Of a DNA stretch of 20,217 bases, positions 7,073 through 16,366 are shown in pieces. The DNA is from a virus. The position numbers and the translations under genes were made by a program. How positions within the stretch are numbered: the stretch's first letter is position 1; each line of letters opens with the position of its first letter. The stretch is taken from positions 1 to 20,217 of the IMG/VR virus record IMGVR_UViG_3300010354_000895, one strand, 5' to 3'. The notes beneath the pieces are model-generated. The model saw only the letters and a list, made by a program, of their open reading frames with translations. It was not told where the DNA came from and made no database searches.

Positions 7073-7303
7073 ATGCCCTATGTAACTGTTAATGTTGATG
7101 TAGATATAAGCGAATTTAGTGATTCGGAAATACTAGAAGAAGTGGAACGCCGTGACCTTAAGCTTGACAACGACGAATTGCCTATGTTTACCGAAGAAGA
7201 TAAAGAACTTCTAGCAGCAATTTATATTAATAGACGACTTAATCTAAACTTTGACAGTCAACTAGATCAACTAATCTATAATTTATTAGGAAGAATTCTA
7301 TGA
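7073..7303 (+). CDS. Conserved acidic phage protein, unknown function
   Basis: A 76-residue acidic protein. It opens with a strand MPYVTVNVDVDI, followed by a helix SDSEILEEVERR and a further helical region ending in a hydrophobic helix (DQLIYNLLGRIL). The 'VxVDVDxxEFxDxEIxEE' start is one I associate with small T4-like phage proteins, but no role is known. It has no metal motif despite the acidic cluster. The ORF is coupled on both sides: one base after the previous stop and an ATGA overlap with the next gene at 7300-7303. An early-operon accessory protein is the most that can be said. Confidence 0.7.
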   Translation: MPYVTVNVDVDISEFSDSEILEEVERRDLKLDNDELPMFTEEDKELLAAIYINRRLNLNFDSQLDQLIYNLLGRIL

Positions 7304-7836
7304 TTACTATGAAACAGTTTTTTGAAATAATTGAGTATAGAATTACAGAAGCCAGTGAGTACCATTGGTCTTGTTTTGGTTCTAACGCACATTGCATCGA
7401 TAGTTGGGATAATGATTATAATGGGCACAGTCTATCTATGATTTTTGATCGCAACGATCAAACAGTTTACTGTCTACAAGTATGCGACTATTCTAAAAAT
7501 CGTGCCTATCGTTACTTTAATCCAATGTTTCAATCAGCATATCGTGAAGAAGTTATTCGTAGAAACGCAGATGATAATGCTTGGGATGATGTTTCCTGGA
7601 CTGATCTTGAAACTCCAGAAGATTTTATGACTAAGGCAACTGCTATTAAAAACTATCAAGATTATGATACTAGAGTCTCTGTTCCTATTGACCTAAACGA
7701 TGACGAACTTTTTAGTCTAATGAAAATGGCACATGAAAAGGATATAACCCTAAATAAGTTAGTTGAAGATATTCTGCAAAAAGTGATTGATAAGGAAAAT
7801 GGAAAAATTAAGTCTACCCAAGAGGCAGAAAATTAA
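7300..7836 (+). CDS. Conserved T4-like phage protein with RHH-like C-terminus
   Basis: A 178-residue protein (AGGA eight bases before the ATG; a second ATG at 7309 is possible). The N-terminal domain is aromatic and acidic (YHWSCFGSNAHCIDSWD, YNGHSLSMIFDR, QTVYCLQVCDY, RAYRYFNPMF), consistent with a beta sheet. The last 50 residues (VSVPIDLNDDELFSLMKMAHEKDITLNKLVEDIL, given here in outline: strand, helix, turn, helix) have the layout of a ribbon-helix-helix DNA-binding domain, with ITLNKLVE as its second helix. I recall this family in aquatic T4-like phages as unknown. The start MKQFFEIIEYRITEAS also resembles the short N-terminal peptides of head-targeted proteins, discussed in the findings. 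The DNA-binding role is inferred. Confidence 0.72.
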   Translation: MITMKQFFEIIEYRITEASEYHWSCFGSNAHCIDSWDNDYNGHSLSMIFDRNDQTVYCLQVCDYSKNRAYRYFNPMFQSAYREEVIRRNADDNAWDDVSWTDLETPEDFMTKATAIKNYQDYDTRVSVPIDLNDDELFSLMKMAHEKDITLNKLVEDILQKVIDKENGKIKSTQEAEN

Positions 7837-9151: not shown

Positions 9152-9835
9152 ATGGAAGCGATTTTAAGTTCTAGTTATCGTAGTGTCTCGGAAATTAACA
9201 ATGCAATGATTCGTGTATATAATCATATGTTTTTGGCTGTTTTAACCAGCGGGGTAATTAGTTATATTGTGAGCAGCAGTCCAGCTGCCATGTCAGTTTT
9301 ATTTGGTACTTGGTTAAAATGGGTAATTATTTTTGCTCCTATACTGGCCGTAATGGGCATTAGTATGGTGCTCGTTACTAACCCGCCAAAAGTATTAGCA
9401 GTTGCCCTGTTACACAGTTTTGCTGCTCTTATGGGCCTAAGTCTTAGTGCAATATTTGCGGTCTATACGTTAGGCAGTATAGTTAATGCCTTTTTAGGTA
9501 GCGCAGTTCTATTTGGCACAATGAGTTTGTATGGTTATTTTACAAAACAAAGTTTAGACAGTTGGGGCAAATATCTATTTGTAGCTGTGATTGCTATTTT
9601 AATTGCCAGTATTATTAATATTTTTATTGGTAGTACACTATTTCAGACTGTAATTAGTGCGGTAGCTATAGTTGTGTTTTTAGGTTTAACTGCCTACGAT
9701 ACTCAAAAGATCAGAGAAATGGTCAGTATTAATAGTACAGATGCAGAAGAAGTATCTGGTGCTCTAACACTCTATTTGGATTTCATTAATTTGTTTATTA
9801 GTCTTTTACAATTATTTGGTGGAAAGAAAGAATGA
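9152..9835 (+). CDS. Bax inhibitor-1 (BI-1/YccA/TMBIM) family membrane protein
   Basis: A 227-residue integral membrane protein with about seven hydrophobic spans (roughly 24-42, 54-76, 80-104, 105-127, 141-161, 164-181, 203-223). The family fingerprint is clear: LTAYDTQKIREM (179-190) and ALTLYLDFINLFISLLQLFG (204-223). It keeps two Asp (183 and 210) at the positions of the pH-sensing pair known in the bacterial member YetJ. The family includes calcium-leak channels and the E. coli proteins YccA and YbhL; YccA modulates the FtsH protease. The role in a phage is unknown: membrane protection, control of FtsH-dependent turnover, or timing of lysis are possible. AAGGAGA lies seven bases before the ATG. 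It overlaps the next gene by ATGA. Confidence 0.92.
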   Translation: MEAILSSSYRSVSEINNAMIRVYNHMFLAVLTSGVISYIVSSSPAAMSVLFGTWLKWVIIFAPILAVMGISMVLVTNPPKVLAVALLHSFAALMGLSLSAIFAVYTLGSIVNAFLGSAVLFGTMSLYGYFTKQSLDSWGKYLFVAVIAILIASIINIFIGSTLFQTVISAVAIVVFLGLTAYDTQKIREMVSINSTDAEEVSGALTLYLDFINLFISLLQLFGGKKE

Positions 9836-10278
9836 GAGATTTAATTAATATTGTAGAGGGCAAAATGATCGATGAGAAATGGTTTTCCACCGGTGCCTTT
9901 CAAGCGTATAAGGATTCAACTGCTCGCGAGCCTTTTGTGATTGCTGCTGAACCCGGAGAGCTACATCACAGGGAAGGAAAAGGCCAAACACAAAAATATG
10001 ACAAAGGGTATTATATTTTAACAGATCCTCAGGGTGGCAAATATAGTATGCCACCAGAAACTTTTCATGAACTAAAAACTGATAATGGTGATGGTACTGC
10101 AACACCTAAAGCAATTGTTAAATTAGCTAAAGTTGCAGATCATTCAGGATCTGTAAAAACTAGCTGGGGAGAAACACTGCATTACGATCCCGAAGTAGAT
10201 GTTATAGTACGTCATGGTCCAGGAAATTATGGAGTGGTAAAAGCAGACACTTTTGCACAAACCTATAAGAGAGTATAA
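9832..10278 (+). CDS. Phage protein with possible head-targeting N-terminus
   Basis: A 148-residue protein. The N-terminus MRDLINIVEG is nearly the same as residues 4-13 of the superoxide dismutase at 12572 (VRSLINLVEA). Both contain I/L-x-E before Gly/Ala, which is the cleavage pattern of the T4 prohead protease. The rest is a beta-rich domain with repeated Gly turns (EPGELHHREG, KGYYILTDPQGGKYSMPP, GDGTATPKAIVKLAKV, GETLHYDPEVDVIVRHG, NYGVVKADTFAQTY). I do not recognise it. A virion or head role is inferred from the N-terminus only; unlike the dismutase it has no late promoter directly upstream. It is coupled to the BI-1 gene (ATGA) and to the next gene (TAATG). Confidence 0.68.
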   Translation: MRDLINIVEGKMIDEKWFSTGAFQAYKDSTAREPFVIAAEPGELHHREGKGQTQKYDKGYYILTDPQGGKYSMPPETFHELKTDNGDGTATPKAIVKLAKVADHSGSVKTSWGETLHYDPEVDVIVRHGPGNYGVVKADTFAQTYKRV

Positions 10279-12344: not shown

Positions 12345-12563
12345 GTGGCTAAAGAAGAAAGTTTAAAATTTGAAGGAACCGTAGTTGAAGTCCTGGGCAA
12401 TGCAATGTTTAGAGTAAAATTATTGGAAGGTGATCATAGTGTCACTGCCTACTTAGGAGGCAAACTACGTCAACACGAAATTAAAATTATTGCGGGAGAT
12501 ACCGTTCAACTCGAAATGAGTCCATATGATATGAGCAAAGGTAGAATAATGTTTCGACGATAA
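12345..12563 (+). CDS. infA: Translation initiation factor IF-1
   Basis: A 72-residue protein with a GTG start; AAGG (12335-12338) lies six bases before it. It aligns over its whole length with bacterial IF-1. It opens MAKEE, then has [17 protein letters not shown], then [10 protein letters not shown], then [19 protein letters not shown] and ends MFRR. By hand against E. coli IF-1 (recalled, not searched) about 40 positions are identical, with one added residue in the loop near LEGDH and one missing near the end. IF-1 is an OB-fold protein that sits in the ribosomal A site during initiation and works with IF-2 and IF-3. Nothing is truncated, so it is probably active. It is co-transcribed with the gene before it from the promoter at 11868. 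Its stop codon lies inside the next late promoter. Confidence 0.93.
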
Positions 12564-12566
12564 ATA
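12559..12566 (+). promoter_or_regulatory. T4-type late promoter (-10 only)
   Basis: GATAAATA matches the NATAAATA late -10 motif of aquatic T4-like phages (TATAAATA in T4). It overlaps the IF-1 stop codon. The ATG of the superoxide dismutase starts five bases later, about where a late transcript would begin. Confidence 0.6.
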
Positions 12567-12571
12567 TATCT

Positions 12572-13120
12572 ATGCATTCAGTACGATCCCTAATAAACTT
12601 AGTTGAAGCTAAGGGTAAAAAAAAGTTAGAGTTGTTGCCTTTAGAGTATAAAAGAACAGAGTTAGATCCTGTCTATAGTAAATCAACAATAGATTTACAC
12701 TACGGAAAATTAGCCAAAGGTTACGTAGAGCGTTTTAACAAAAAAGAGGGAGACCCGGAGTTTAATGAAGCAGGGGCTTTCCTACATAATATACTGTTTG
12801 CGCAATGGCAATCACCTAGTTCAAATAACGAGCCTGACGACTTAGTTGCTGCTATTATTAGACGGAAATACAGCAATTACAAAAAATTCCAACAAGAATT
12901 TGCAGAAGAGGCAATGAAGATCCAGGGGTCGGGCTGGATTTACCTAAGTAAATCGGGATCAATTAAGACCATACCTAATCACGAAATTAGACAAGATATT
13001 TTACTTCTAGTAGACTGGTGGGAACACGCATTTATATTAGATTACGGCAGTAACAAAAAAACATATTTAGACAATACGTGGAAAATTATTAATTGGGATG
13101 TTATAAATAAAAGACTGTGA
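12572..13120 (+). CDS. Fe/Mn-type superoxide dismutase with N-terminal extension
   Basis: A 182-residue protein. From about residue 20 it follows the Fe/Mn superoxide dismutase fold. LEYKRTELDPVYSKSTIDLH provides the first ligand His43, and Tyr51 is the gate residue. FLHNILFAQW gives His72, GSGWIYL is the family block near 119-125, and LLVDWWEHAF gives Asp148 and His152. YLDNTWKIINWDVI is the usual end. All four metal ligands are present. Odd points: the second-shell His pair of HYGKHH is replaced (HYGKLA), and a His in PNHE (137) occupies about the place of the active-site Gln, as in some archaeal enzymes. Residues 1-18 are an extension containing SLINLVEA, like a T4 capsid-targeting peptide. 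The enzyme turns superoxide into peroxide and oxygen. No ribosome site is visible; a late promoter lies directly upstream. Confidence 0.9.
   Translation: MHSVRSLINLVEAKGKKKLELLPLEYKRTELDPVYSKSTIDLHYGKLAKGYVERFNKKEGDPEFNEAGAFLHNILFAQWQSPSSNNEPDDLVAAIIRRKYSNYKKFQQEFAEEAMKIQGSGWIYLSKSGSIKTIPNHEIRQDILLLVDWWEHAFILDYGSNKKTYLDNTWKIINWDVINKRL
13102..13109 (+). promoter_or_regulatory. T4-type late promoter (exact TATAAATA)
   Basis: TATAAATA, the exact T4 late -10 consensus, lies within the last codons of the superoxide dismutase, 41 bases before the tail gene at 13150. A second motif follows at 13124. Confidence 0.55.
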
Positions 13121-13149: not shown

Positions 13150-13569
13150 ATGAGTCAACAATTAATTAATACTGGTACAAGTGCAAATGACGGCACAGGA
13201 GATTCCCTACGAACCAGTTTTACAAAGACTAATAGTAATTTTACAGAATTATACACTAATCTACTCCCAAATCTTACCACAGTAACCAGTAACACTGTTT
13301 TAACAACACAAACATTAGTCTTAGCTAATGTTTCTGCAGCGGGTAATGATATAGTGGTAACATTACCAAATTGTGCTACTAGAGCAAACACTTATGTGGT
13401 AGTTAGATCTCATGACCCCGATGGATTAGGATATGATACTAAAGTCAATACTGCAGTAGGCGAAGGTCAAATTTACTCAAATCCTAGTACAATAACTAGT
13501 CTAGTTACAGTTACAAGTATAGGCAACAGATTTTTATCTATAGGAACAGCTTGGTTGGTGATCGCCTAA
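13150..13569 (+). CDS. Tail/baseplate-type structural protein (short)
   Basis: A 139-residue protein. It opens with SQQLINTGTSANDGTGDSLR and TSFTKTNSNFTELYTNL, an N-terminal block typical of tail-fibre and baseplate proteins of aquatic T4-like phages, where it probably serves for attachment. The rest is beta-rich: TLVLANVSAAGNDIVVTLP, ANTYVVVRSHDPDG, GEGQIYSNPSTI, LVTVTSIGNRFLSIGTAWLV. This resembles the small shaft or tip domain of fibres in which the last strand ends in 'GTAWLVIA'. The composition (Thr/Ser/Asn-rich, few charges) matches the two large proteins that follow. A late promoter pair lies directly upstream, and the next gene starts one base after its stop, so the three are a late structural operon. 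Confidence 0.8.
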   Translation: MSQQLINTGTSANDGTGDSLRTSFTKTNSNFTELYTNLLPNLTTVTSNTVLTTQTLVLANVSAAGNDIVVTLPNCATRANTYVVVRSHDPDGLGYDTKVNTAVGEGQIYSNPSTITSLVTVTSIGNRFLSIGTAWLVIA

Positions 13570-13570
13570 T

Positions 13571-16366
13571 ATGTCAGCTATATGGACTACAACCGCAGGT
13601 GTAATAGGTACTGCTGTTACGAATCAAGAATATCAATATCAGTTAATAGCATTTGATACTCTCGGCTTTGCTTTGTCTTACAAGTTAGTTTCTGGGTCAT
13701 TGCCTACCAATATTAGCCTGTATTCAAACGGGCTGATTCAGGGCACTGCTTTACCGATGGCAGACGACCAACTTAATACAAGCATAGATGACCCGTTTAA
13801 TGCTACTAATACAAGAACCTTTGTTGTAAGGGCAACGACACAGGATAGTCAGATCGCAGATAGAACCTTTACATTGTGGACAAGGGGAATTGACAGTGTA
13901 GTTTTAAGTCCGACCAGCGGTAACTTAGGCAGTTACTTATCTGGATCGTTTGTAAATATACAACTTAGCACATCAAACCCTATACCTAATAGCAATATAA
14001 CCTACAGCACAACATCAACAAGTGTGCTGCCCCCAGGAGTTAATTTAAGTTCTAGCACAGGTGCAATCACAGGTTATATATTGCCATCATATTACAGTCT
14101 AAGTCCAAATGTTATAGCATTTGACATGTCGGCTTGGGGTCAATATCCATTTGATGGAATAGACGAAAATAAAGTATACCAGTTTAGTGTAACCGCACAA
14201 AACAATATACAATATTGGAATAGAGATACAGAAAACTACAGCTTGTACAGCTATAGTAGAAAAAATTTAACTGCTGATAACGATATATTAACTGCAGATA
14301 ATTCAACTTCTTTCTTTACTGCAGACCTATCTAATCAATATAGCCCAGTTCTTTTAACTAATGCAGGCTTTATTGGCAATACAAGAATAGATGATAATTA
14401 TAGATTTAAGTTTGAAGCTATAGATTTTAACAGTGACGATTTAAGTTATAATTTAGTATCAGGATCACTTCCAACTGGAATAAGTCTTTTAACTAATACC
14501 GGTTACTTATCTGGTTCAATAATCACTAGTAATCTAGGCTATACAGATTACTCGTTCAGTATTAATGCCTACAAAACTAATGATCCCGAATTTGTAAGTG
14601 AAACTAAAAATTATACATTGCGAGTTTTGGGCACCACGGATCAATCTGTCCAATGGCAAACTGCAAGCAATCTAGGTACAATATATGCAGGGGAAATAAG
14701 TGAGCTGTCTGTTTCTGCCACATCAGCTTCTGGAAGAAATCTATATTATAGACTAAGTCAAGACAGTATAGGATCATTACCGGCTGGACTGGCACTTCAA
14801 CCCGACGGTTTAATTGTGGGTAGACCAAGTTGGCATACACTAAATTCCAGTGAAGAAACGCTTTACACATTTAATGTAGAGGCCTATGATTCCAGCAGTC
14901 TGGATTATGGTACTAAACAGTTTAGTTTTAGGTTAGTACAACGCACTATAAAACCATATCAAAATTTATATATACAATTAAGTCCCGATAAAGCACAACG
15001 TAATATTTACGAGTTAGCAGTTACTAATCCTGCAACCATTCCCGAATCTGCTATATATAGACCAACAGATAAATGGTTTGGTAGAAACACAGACCGTACT
15101 ATGCTTTTTTTACCCGGACTCAATCCTAAAACTATCAAGAATTATTCTGATGCTACGCAACTTAATCATTACTGGAAATCATTGCAATTTGGCAATATTA
15201 AAACAGCAAGAGCAACGGATGAAAATATTAACACAGTCTACGAAGTAATCTATATAGAAATATTAGAAGATAATGTAAACAGCCAAGGATTTGGACCAAA
15301 TTTATCTATAACCTGGCCTACAAATCAAGAAAATATTTCTCAGGTATATCCAAATACTTTTGACAATATGGCACAACGTATTCTAAACGATATAGGATAT
15401 TTAGATAAAGGCGTGCTACCTAAATGGATGACCAGTAGACAAACTGATGGGACTGTATTAGGATTTACACGAGCTTTGGTTTTAGCTTATCTCAAACCAG
15501 GGCAAAGCGAAGAAATTGCATTTAGATTGAGTAGATCGGATATAGATTTTAATTTAATTGATTTCACTGTAGACAGATATCTGTGGGATCACGTTCTATC
15601 CGATCAATTTATAATTACACCAGTTTCTGGACAAGGAAATATTACTGCAAACACTCAAAGTAATATTGTAATAGGCAACAGTACACAATTTAACACTGAA
15701 CTGTCAGAGGGAACCAGCATATTTGTAAGTAATGTGCTCGTAGGTGTTGTGGATAGCATCAGCAATAGCAGTGTACTAATTCTAACAGCTAATTCAATTA
15801 GCAATATTGGCAATCTGTCCTTTACCTATTCTAATACTTTTGTGGTTAATAATTTTGTTCTGGCATCAGGTAATATTTCAGCAAATACACAAAGCAATCT
15901 AGTGCTAGCAGTTACAGGCAATATTGTTTGTACAGGAACTATTACCGCAACTAATGCCAGTCCTTATGTTATTGGCACAGACACTAAATTTGCAGATGAA
16001 CTAACTGCAGGTTCTAATATAGTAGTATCAGGTTCCCGATTTGGTATCGTGGATAGAATTTTTAGTAACGCTAACATTAAATTATTAGATATACCGACAT
16101 TAAACGTTAGTAATGTCAGTTTTAGTACTAATCTAGTGCCAACTAATTTCAATCAACAGATTAAAATTGGTGATAGCATAATTTCTTCAAATACCTTAAT
16201 TGGAATAGTAGAATCTATTACTAGTAACATATCTTTGGTTTTAGAATCTAATGCATCTGCTAACATTAGCAATCAAGAGTTTTATCATTTAGCCAGCGAC
16301 CCAGTAAGCTATCCTACTTTAGGGGCACAATACATTAAGTTTCCAAATGTCAATATTTTATCATAA
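13571..16366 (+). CDS. Large tail/fibre structural protein with Ig-like repeats
   Basis: A 931-residue protein rich in Ser, Thr, Asn and Gly. Residues 1-457 hold about four putative-Ig (He_PIG-like) units recognised by the recurring 'Y-x-L-V-S-G-S-L-P-x-G-I-S-L ... G-x-I-x-G' pattern: YKLVSGSLPTNISL (37-50), TSVLPPGVNLSSSTGAITG (150-168), YNLVSGSLPTGISL (293-306) and IGSLPAGLALQPDGLIVG (400-417). Residues 490-680 form a different conserved domain (KWFGRNTDRTMLFLPGLNPK, NHYWKSLQFGNIKTARATDE, YEVIYIEI). Residues 690-905 contain three repeats of a small beta unit with GTxFxxEL-x-G and VxSI. The whole is a virion surface protein, probably tail or fibre, with carbohydrate or receptor contact possible. 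It is transcribed late with its neighbours. No chaperone or protease domain is seen. Confidence 0.82.
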   Translation: MSAIWTTTAGVIGTAVTNQEYQYQLIAFDTLGFALSYKLVSGSLPTNISLYSNGLIQGTALPMADDQLNTSIDDPFNATNTRTFVVRATTQDSQIADRTFTLWTRGIDSVVLSPTSGNLGSYLSGSFVNIQLSTSNPIPNSNITYSTTSTSVLPPGVNLSSSTGAITGYILPSYYSLSPNVIAFDMSAWGQYPFDGIDENKVYQFSVTAQNNIQYWNRDTENYSLYSYSRKNLTADNDILTADNSTSFFTADLSNQYSPVLLTNAGFIGNTRIDDNYRFKFEAIDFNSDDLSYNLVSGSLPTGISLLTNTGYLSGSIITSNLGYTDYSFSINAYKTNDPEFVSETKNYTLRVLGTTDQSVQWQTASNLGTIYAGEISELSVSATSASGRNLYYRLSQDSIGSLPAGLALQPDGLIVGRPSWHTLNSSEETLYTFNVEAYDSSSLDYGTKQFSFRLVQRTIKPYQNLYIQLSPDKAQRNIYELAVTNPATIPESAIYRPTDKWFGRNTDRTMLFLPGLNPKTIKNYSDATQLNHYWKSLQFGNIKTARATDENINTVYEVIYIEILEDNVNSQGFGPNLSITWPTNQENISQVYPNTFDNMAQRILNDIGYLDKGVLPKWMTSRQTDGTVLGFTRALVLAYLKPGQSEEIAFRLSRSDIDFNLIDFTVDRYLWDHVLSDQFIITPVSGQGNITANTQSNIVIGNSTQFNTELSEGTSIFVSNVLVGVVDSISNSSVLILTANSISNIGNLSFTYSNTFVVNNFVLASGNISANTQSNLVLAVTGNIVCTGTITATNASPYVIGTDTKFADELTAGSNIVVSGSRFGIVDRIFSNANIKLLDIPTLNVSNVSFSTNLVPTNFNQQIKIGDSIISSNTLIGIVESITSNISLVLESNASANISNQEFYHLASDPVSYPTLGAQYIKFPNVNILS
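15638..16285 (+). repeat. Three degenerate protein repeats within the large tail protein
   Basis: The translated segment repeats a beta unit three times: GNITANTQSNIVIGNSTQFN (residues 689-708) then VGVVDSISNSSVLIL; GTITATNASPYVIGTDTKF then FGIVDRIFSNANIKLL; and IKIGDSIISSNTLIGIVESI then TSNISLVLES. A partial fourth copy (GNISANTQSNLVLA, 767-780) lies between the first two. The copies differ too much at DNA level for recent expansion. Confidence 0.7.

Follow-up and report, generated by a model that had tools for sequence, protein, structure and literature searches.

A Phage Fe/Mn Superoxide Dismutase with a Leader Resembling T4 Capsid-Targeting Sequences

Why should a superoxide dismutase (SOD) encoded by a phage begin with a short peptide that ends like a cleavage site of the T4 prohead protease? 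The question is raised by a gene of IMG/VR virus record IMGVR_UViG_3300010354_000895, of which we analysed a stretch of 20,217 bases (the window), a fragment from a freshwater virus of bacteria. The initial annotation had proposed that the enzyme is built for packaging into the phage head. We consider it likely, from comparison with related phages, that the SOD is indeed packaged in the head and processed there by predicted targeting and cleavage steps. Coordinates are collected in Table 1, and a downward arrow marks a predicted or known cleavage site.

The enzyme and its N-terminal leader

The product of the open reading frame is an Fe/Mn superoxide dismutase with a predicted dismutase activity. 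The protein matched the Pfam families Sod_Fe_C (1.1e-22) and Sod_Fe_N (1.1e-7), the best phmmer match among the SODs of the PDB had an E-value of 5.5e-25, and the AlphaFold2 (AF2) model, with a mean predicted local distance difference test (pLDDT) score of 89.5, retrieved only SODs as top Foldseek matches. It belongs to the SodFM group by both fold and sequence family. The three His and one Asp metal ligands listed in the initial annotation (His43, His72, Asp148, and His152) are present and invariant across 21 aligned phage SODs, so that, together with the Pfam matches, the enzyme call stands. The HxxxHH motif typical of most SODs reads HYGKLA in the window protein (residues 43-48, 12698-12715), and the second-shell residues thus differ. 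Both downstream His of this motif are missing in the phage SODs of the same group (HYGKLA or HYGKLY), whereas Tyr51 is retained, as are the four ligands. Judged by eye, Gly68 occupies the N-terminal water-ligand position and His137 the presumed C-terminal one. This Gly/His arrangement is that of most SodFM3/4 enzymes (PMC10172142), which the window SOD seems to resemble in subtype, again by eye, though without both downstream His of HxxxHH.

The peptide MHSVRSLINLVE directly precedes Ala13, as had been read in the initial annotation, and its end, LVE↓A, fits the I/L-x-E rule. In alignments with bacterial iron SODs (FeSODs), residue 20 of the window SOD falls on their residue 3 or 4, which gives an N-terminal extension of about 17 residues, close to the 18 first estimated. 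The solved cellular SODs aligned here, a comparison suggested at the outset, do not have this leader. In the AF2 model residues 1-15 have pLDDT values below 50 and the core is mostly above 90; the leader therefore lies outside the SOD fold. The SOD of MW462191 (L170), which starts MAFELPALPYDYDAL like cellular SODs, was considered as a leaderless control and set aside with little weight, because the record may be bacterial DNA.

Conservation and sharing of the leader

Homologous SOD loci were collected from IMG/VR in two scans, the first yielding 34 loci and the second its best 80, 74 of them new, and a total of 108 were inspected. The pattern [ILVFMT]-x-E was present at about residues 7-16 in all 108 (34 close and 74 further homologues), a count that may be slightly flattered since, wherever more than one ATG could serve, the choice of start codon took the motif into account. 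The first 34 loci all have a leader of 7-15 residues that ends in hydrophobic-x-E followed by A, G, S, or T, and the same pattern was found in 51 of the 74 further loci. The other 23 were missed by this pattern and were considered as exceptions. That view was rejected, since inspection by eye found in them a site of the L-x-E, I-x-E, or T-x-E type (LLE, LIE, or LTE) with E, D, or Q as the next residue. An extension without the hydrophobic-x-Glu pattern, whose first place is taken by Thr in a few leaders, and for which the initial annotation had proposed to compare N-termini across homologues, was found in 0 of the 108 loci. Among 77 distinct leaders, the strict I/L-x-E form occurs in 69 and [ILVFMT]-x-E in all. 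Hydrophobic-x-E-[AGST] occurs in 32 of 35 non-redundant leaders, against a mean of 3.2 and a maximum of 10 in 2000 shuffling trials, a comparison that is not a formal probability because the homologues are related by descent. The protease-type site is retained in the SOD leaders while the remaining leader sequence diverges: on the same enzyme, different phages carry MYNFIK..LNE↓G, MRDIINLLE↓A, or MRARDFLTE↓S. Several SODs start with MRATEFLTE, MRAVEFLTE, or MRARDFLTE, close to MKTYQEFIAE of T4, with which the internal proteins IPII and IPIII begin (MKTYQEFIAE↓A).

Leaders of this type are not confined to the SOD. In related phages, genes around the SOD gene start with MRAKEFIFE↓A, MKAKEFIIE↓G, MRAREFISE↓S, and MRANEFLE↓G, among others. 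The folds that bear them near the SOD include an SLT transglycosylase, an NT5C nucleotidase, and a zeta-toxin-like P-loop protein, to which lower-scoring matches add ASCH, kinase-like, and GNAT proteins; a cytidylyltransferase-like protein carries one elsewhere in one relative, away from the SOD. In six long contigs, the expression M[RK]xx[EQDR][FILV]..E matched 7 of 87 genes within 6 kb of the SOD versus 12 of 795 elsewhere (Fisher p=0.0013), with a rate of 0.3% in shuffled proteins; the test is descriptive, because the expression was composed after the leaders had been seen. As judged from sequence, the SOD leader is a portable tag found on unrelated neighbouring proteins. Clusters of genes with T4-type leaders and unrelated folds were seen at L005:7584-8549, L016:8606-9951, L032:10546-11154, L102:1627-2511, L123:6552-7235, and L053:12351-18457, and seem to be arsenals of proteins that are packaged and perhaps injected. 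In the window itself a PGDYG-family-like protein is a second candidate cargo; its Pfam match (PGDYG, 1.8e-5) is weak and below the cut-off, and its homologues retain MRDLINIVE↓D and IINLLQE↓D. The window open reading frame 7300-7836 (..RITE↓A) was also considered as cargo and was rejected, a similar protein of G007 having RITGG at this place.

The gp21 protease of T4 cleaves after L/I-x-E, and capsid targeting sequence (CTS) leaders direct the T4 internal proteins to the head (PMC9026906). A search for a prohead protease in the 20,217-base window gave no match, which is uninformative because the record is a 20-kb fragment. The gp21 family (PF03420) was found in all eight searched SOD-bearing records longer than 120 kb, two of which, G021 and G022, look near-identical. 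The shorter SOD-bearing contigs searched, which are probably fragments, gave no PF03420 match. In the cultured jumbo phage PA5oct the match (5.3e-24) adjoins the portal and gp23 genes. From alignment and conserved context, the gp23 propeptides of SOD-bearing phages appear to end in L-x-E (YLAE↓S, HLME↓T, NLLE↓N, LLAE↓S, YLSE↓S, and FLVE↓N) at the position of FLTE↓A in T4.

Probable packaging of the SOD and its alternatives

The homologue in PA5oct, EST35_0261, shares 42% identity with the window SOD and starts MNDSIKKYISIAE↓A, with an IAE↓A site. Its record carries a note of electrospray ionization tandem mass spectrometry (ESI-MS/MS), as do exactly 93 PA5oct coding sequences, the SOD included. 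The abstract of the description of PA5oct by Lood et al. in 2020 reportedly gives 93 virion-associated proteins. The packaging reading of the initial annotation is thus backed by the conservation of the leader, the sharing of the tag, the protease of the relatives, and the mass spectrometry flag of PA5oct.

We propose that the SOD would be synthesised late in infection as a precursor, whose leader MHSVRSLINLVE would act as a T4-type CTS and bind the scaffolding core, so that the enzyme becomes enclosed in the prohead. A gp21-type prohead protease would then cleave after Glu12 (L-V-E↓A) and leave the mature SOD, from Ala13 on, free among the DNA that fills the head. By analogy with the T4 internal proteins and Alt, the mature enzyme would be ejected with the DNA and scavenge superoxide in the cell just infected; it may additionally protect the DNA within the particle. 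Given the T4-like loading tag, the enzyme is probably carried in the particle and delivered to the infected cell. Delivery, which rests on the analogy, is somewhat more probable than its opposite and less assured than packaging. We infer the activity of the SOD, its biological role, and its benefit.

Several observations weigh against packaging. The PA5oct mass spectrometry set also holds leaderless enzymes (ribonucleotide reductase, thymidylate synthase, and ligase); because of these, the SOD may have co-purified, and its flag is support and not proof. A lax form of the motif is weakly enriched, in 7 of 93 flagged versus 3 of 134 other PA5oct proteins, and as the motif has an internal background of 4-5% in each 20-residue window, this enrichment is too weak to count alone. 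In about one third of the homologues from the second scan, the Glu is followed by D, E, or Q and not by A, G, or S. Finally, the SOD of Vibrio phage 2.275.O (L037:5959-6528) is without any N-terminal leader, the sole exception seen. Its C-terminus ends ..KMLDE↓SVNIRHLINFISK, a peptide similar to the leader, which may act in this phage as a C-terminal head-targeting tag; C-terminal processing is also known for T4 Alt (PMC9026906). A gene for a KTSC protein lying upstream, near this SOD (L037:4880-5413), starts MFTIRHFIDVMNE↓A.

Bacterial Fe/Mn SODs are normally cytosolic, and the phage enzyme could be an ordinary late-expressed SOD that acts in the host cytosol, with a leader that is non-functional or regulatory and a PA5oct signal due to co-purification, as the non-structural enzymes of that set (e.g., ribonucleotide reductase and thymidylate synthase) would allow. 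However, a non-functional extension is not expected to retain hydrophobic-x-Glu in every homologue while the leader diverges, nor to occur on unrelated neighbouring proteins, and we regard such a cytosolic late enzyme as unlikely. Still more improbable, to a degree that we give it hardly any weight, is that the extension has a structural role in the enzyme, e.g., as an oligomer contact, its likeness to a protease site being incidental. The architecture of the N-terminal helices does differ among SodFM subfamilies (PMC10172142), but residues 1-15 are predicted to be disordered, the leader varies in sequence and in length (with the Glu at residue 7 to 16), and the same leader type is present on other folds.

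A packaged and processed SOD might also stay in the particle and guard DNA or capsid from oxidation in sunlit water. This overlaps with the packaging reading, of which it is a sub-case, and shares all its evidence; the homologous loci, moreover, come from environmental viral contigs. Several tagged neighbours look like host-acting enzymes, though, and we hold retention in the particle to be the less probable fate, with a modest chance only. A broader picture, in which the SOD is injected, can be put forward tentatively and is, in our judgement, rather less than an even bet. T4-like jumbo phages of a widespread group would carry a virion arsenal by means of one exchangeable leader, present on the SOD and on transglycosylase, nucleotidase, kinase-like, and P-loop proteins. 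Once injected, the SOD would blunt infection-induced superoxide (possibly part of a host defence) during the first minutes, when phage genes are still silent, and the tag could also be placed at the C-terminal end, as in the SOD of Vibrio phage 2.275.O.

The proposed mechanism is that of the T4 internal proteins; the SOD cargo is new. With T4 IPI, IPII, IPIII, and Alt, which bear a CTS and are processed by gp21, the system shares a short N-terminal leader with I/L-x-E before a small residue, a putative late expression signal, a leader carried by unrelated proteins, and a gp21-type protease with a gp23-type capsid, here in the relatives of the window phage. It differs in having a conserved metabolic enzyme as cargo, a more variable leader, and cleavage and ejection steps that are predicted. 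The inner-body proteins of phiKZ and SPN3US are likewise head cargo whose propeptides a gp21-related protease removes by cleavage after Glu, but the sites are S-x-E and A-x-E and the propeptides mostly far longer (PMC5694885). An independent precedent for a virus-encoded SOD in a virion is A245R of chlorovirus PBCV-1, a late, packaged enzyme for which lower superoxide in infected cells was reported; it is of the unrelated Cu/Zn family, from a virus of eukaryotic algae, and no T4-type targeting peptide is described for it in the review (PMC7019647). The SODs of the Wroclawvirus phages PA5oct, MIJ3, Callisto, and Paride are homologous to the window enzyme, with an IAE↓A leader. Their annotations read hypothetical or sodB, and the papers examined discuss neither the leader nor packaging.

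No report of an SOD in a phage virion was found in the literature searched. If the packaging reading is true, this would be, as far as that search showed, the first phage particle shown to carry an antioxidant enzyme, and superoxide at infection would become a testable variable in the conflict between phage and host. The head cargo of jumbo phages is mostly uncharacterised, and a short leader ending in hydrophobic-x-Glu before a small residue would be a simple rule for predicting their injected proteins. PA5oct, MIJ3, Callisto, and Paride are cultured, so that packaging is directly testable.

Late-promoter-like box and neighbouring genes

The late promoter motif that the initial annotation placed at the start region was recovered as the box ATAAATA. 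Across 63 distinct SOD upstream regions, TAAATA lies 4-8 nt 5' of the start in 38, against about 0.02 expected per 40-nt region; its placement before the SOD is therefore not due to chance. The box resembles the T4 late promoter and would yield an almost leaderless SOD mRNA. TAAATA is common at gene starts in the relatives: it stands at most 10 nt from many start codons in G003, G007, G008, and G020, and in G020 alone 18 starts have it at a gap of 5-9 nt versus 0.29 expected. This suggests that the late mRNAs of these phages have almost no leader.

Table 1: Features of the window discussed in the text.
Feature	Position	Strand	Evidence or remark
PGDYG-family-like protein, leader MRDLINIVE↓G, second candidate cargo	9832..10278	+	Sequence; weak Pfam match
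Translation initiation factor IF-1 homologue, complete, directly upstream of SOD	12345..12563	+	Pfam eIF-1a 8.5e-21
ATAAATA, late-promoter-like box	12560..12566	+	5 nt before SOD ATG, overlapping IF-1 stop codon
Fe/Mn SOD precursor, 182 aa, ATG start	12572..13120	+	Pfam, phmmer, AF2, Foldseek
Leader MHSVRSLINLVE of the capsid-targeting type, residues 1-12; cleavage by the prohead protease predicted after Glu12	12572..12607	+	Conservation, disorder, alignment
Predicted mature SOD from Ala13, ligands H43, H72, D148, H152	12608..13117	+	Invariant columns and fold
T4 gp9/10-type baseplate/fibre connector-like protein, next gene	13150..13569	+	PF07880 6.1e-7; phrog_677 8.4e-13
Ig-domain tail-fibre-like protein	13571..16366	+	He_PIG 5.4e-17

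The tail proteins that had been noted next to the SOD were identified as the connector-like and Ig-domain proteins of Table 1. Phage translation factors recur near the SOD in other phages, with IF-3 and S21 in Vibrio phage 2.275.O and S21 in PA5oct.
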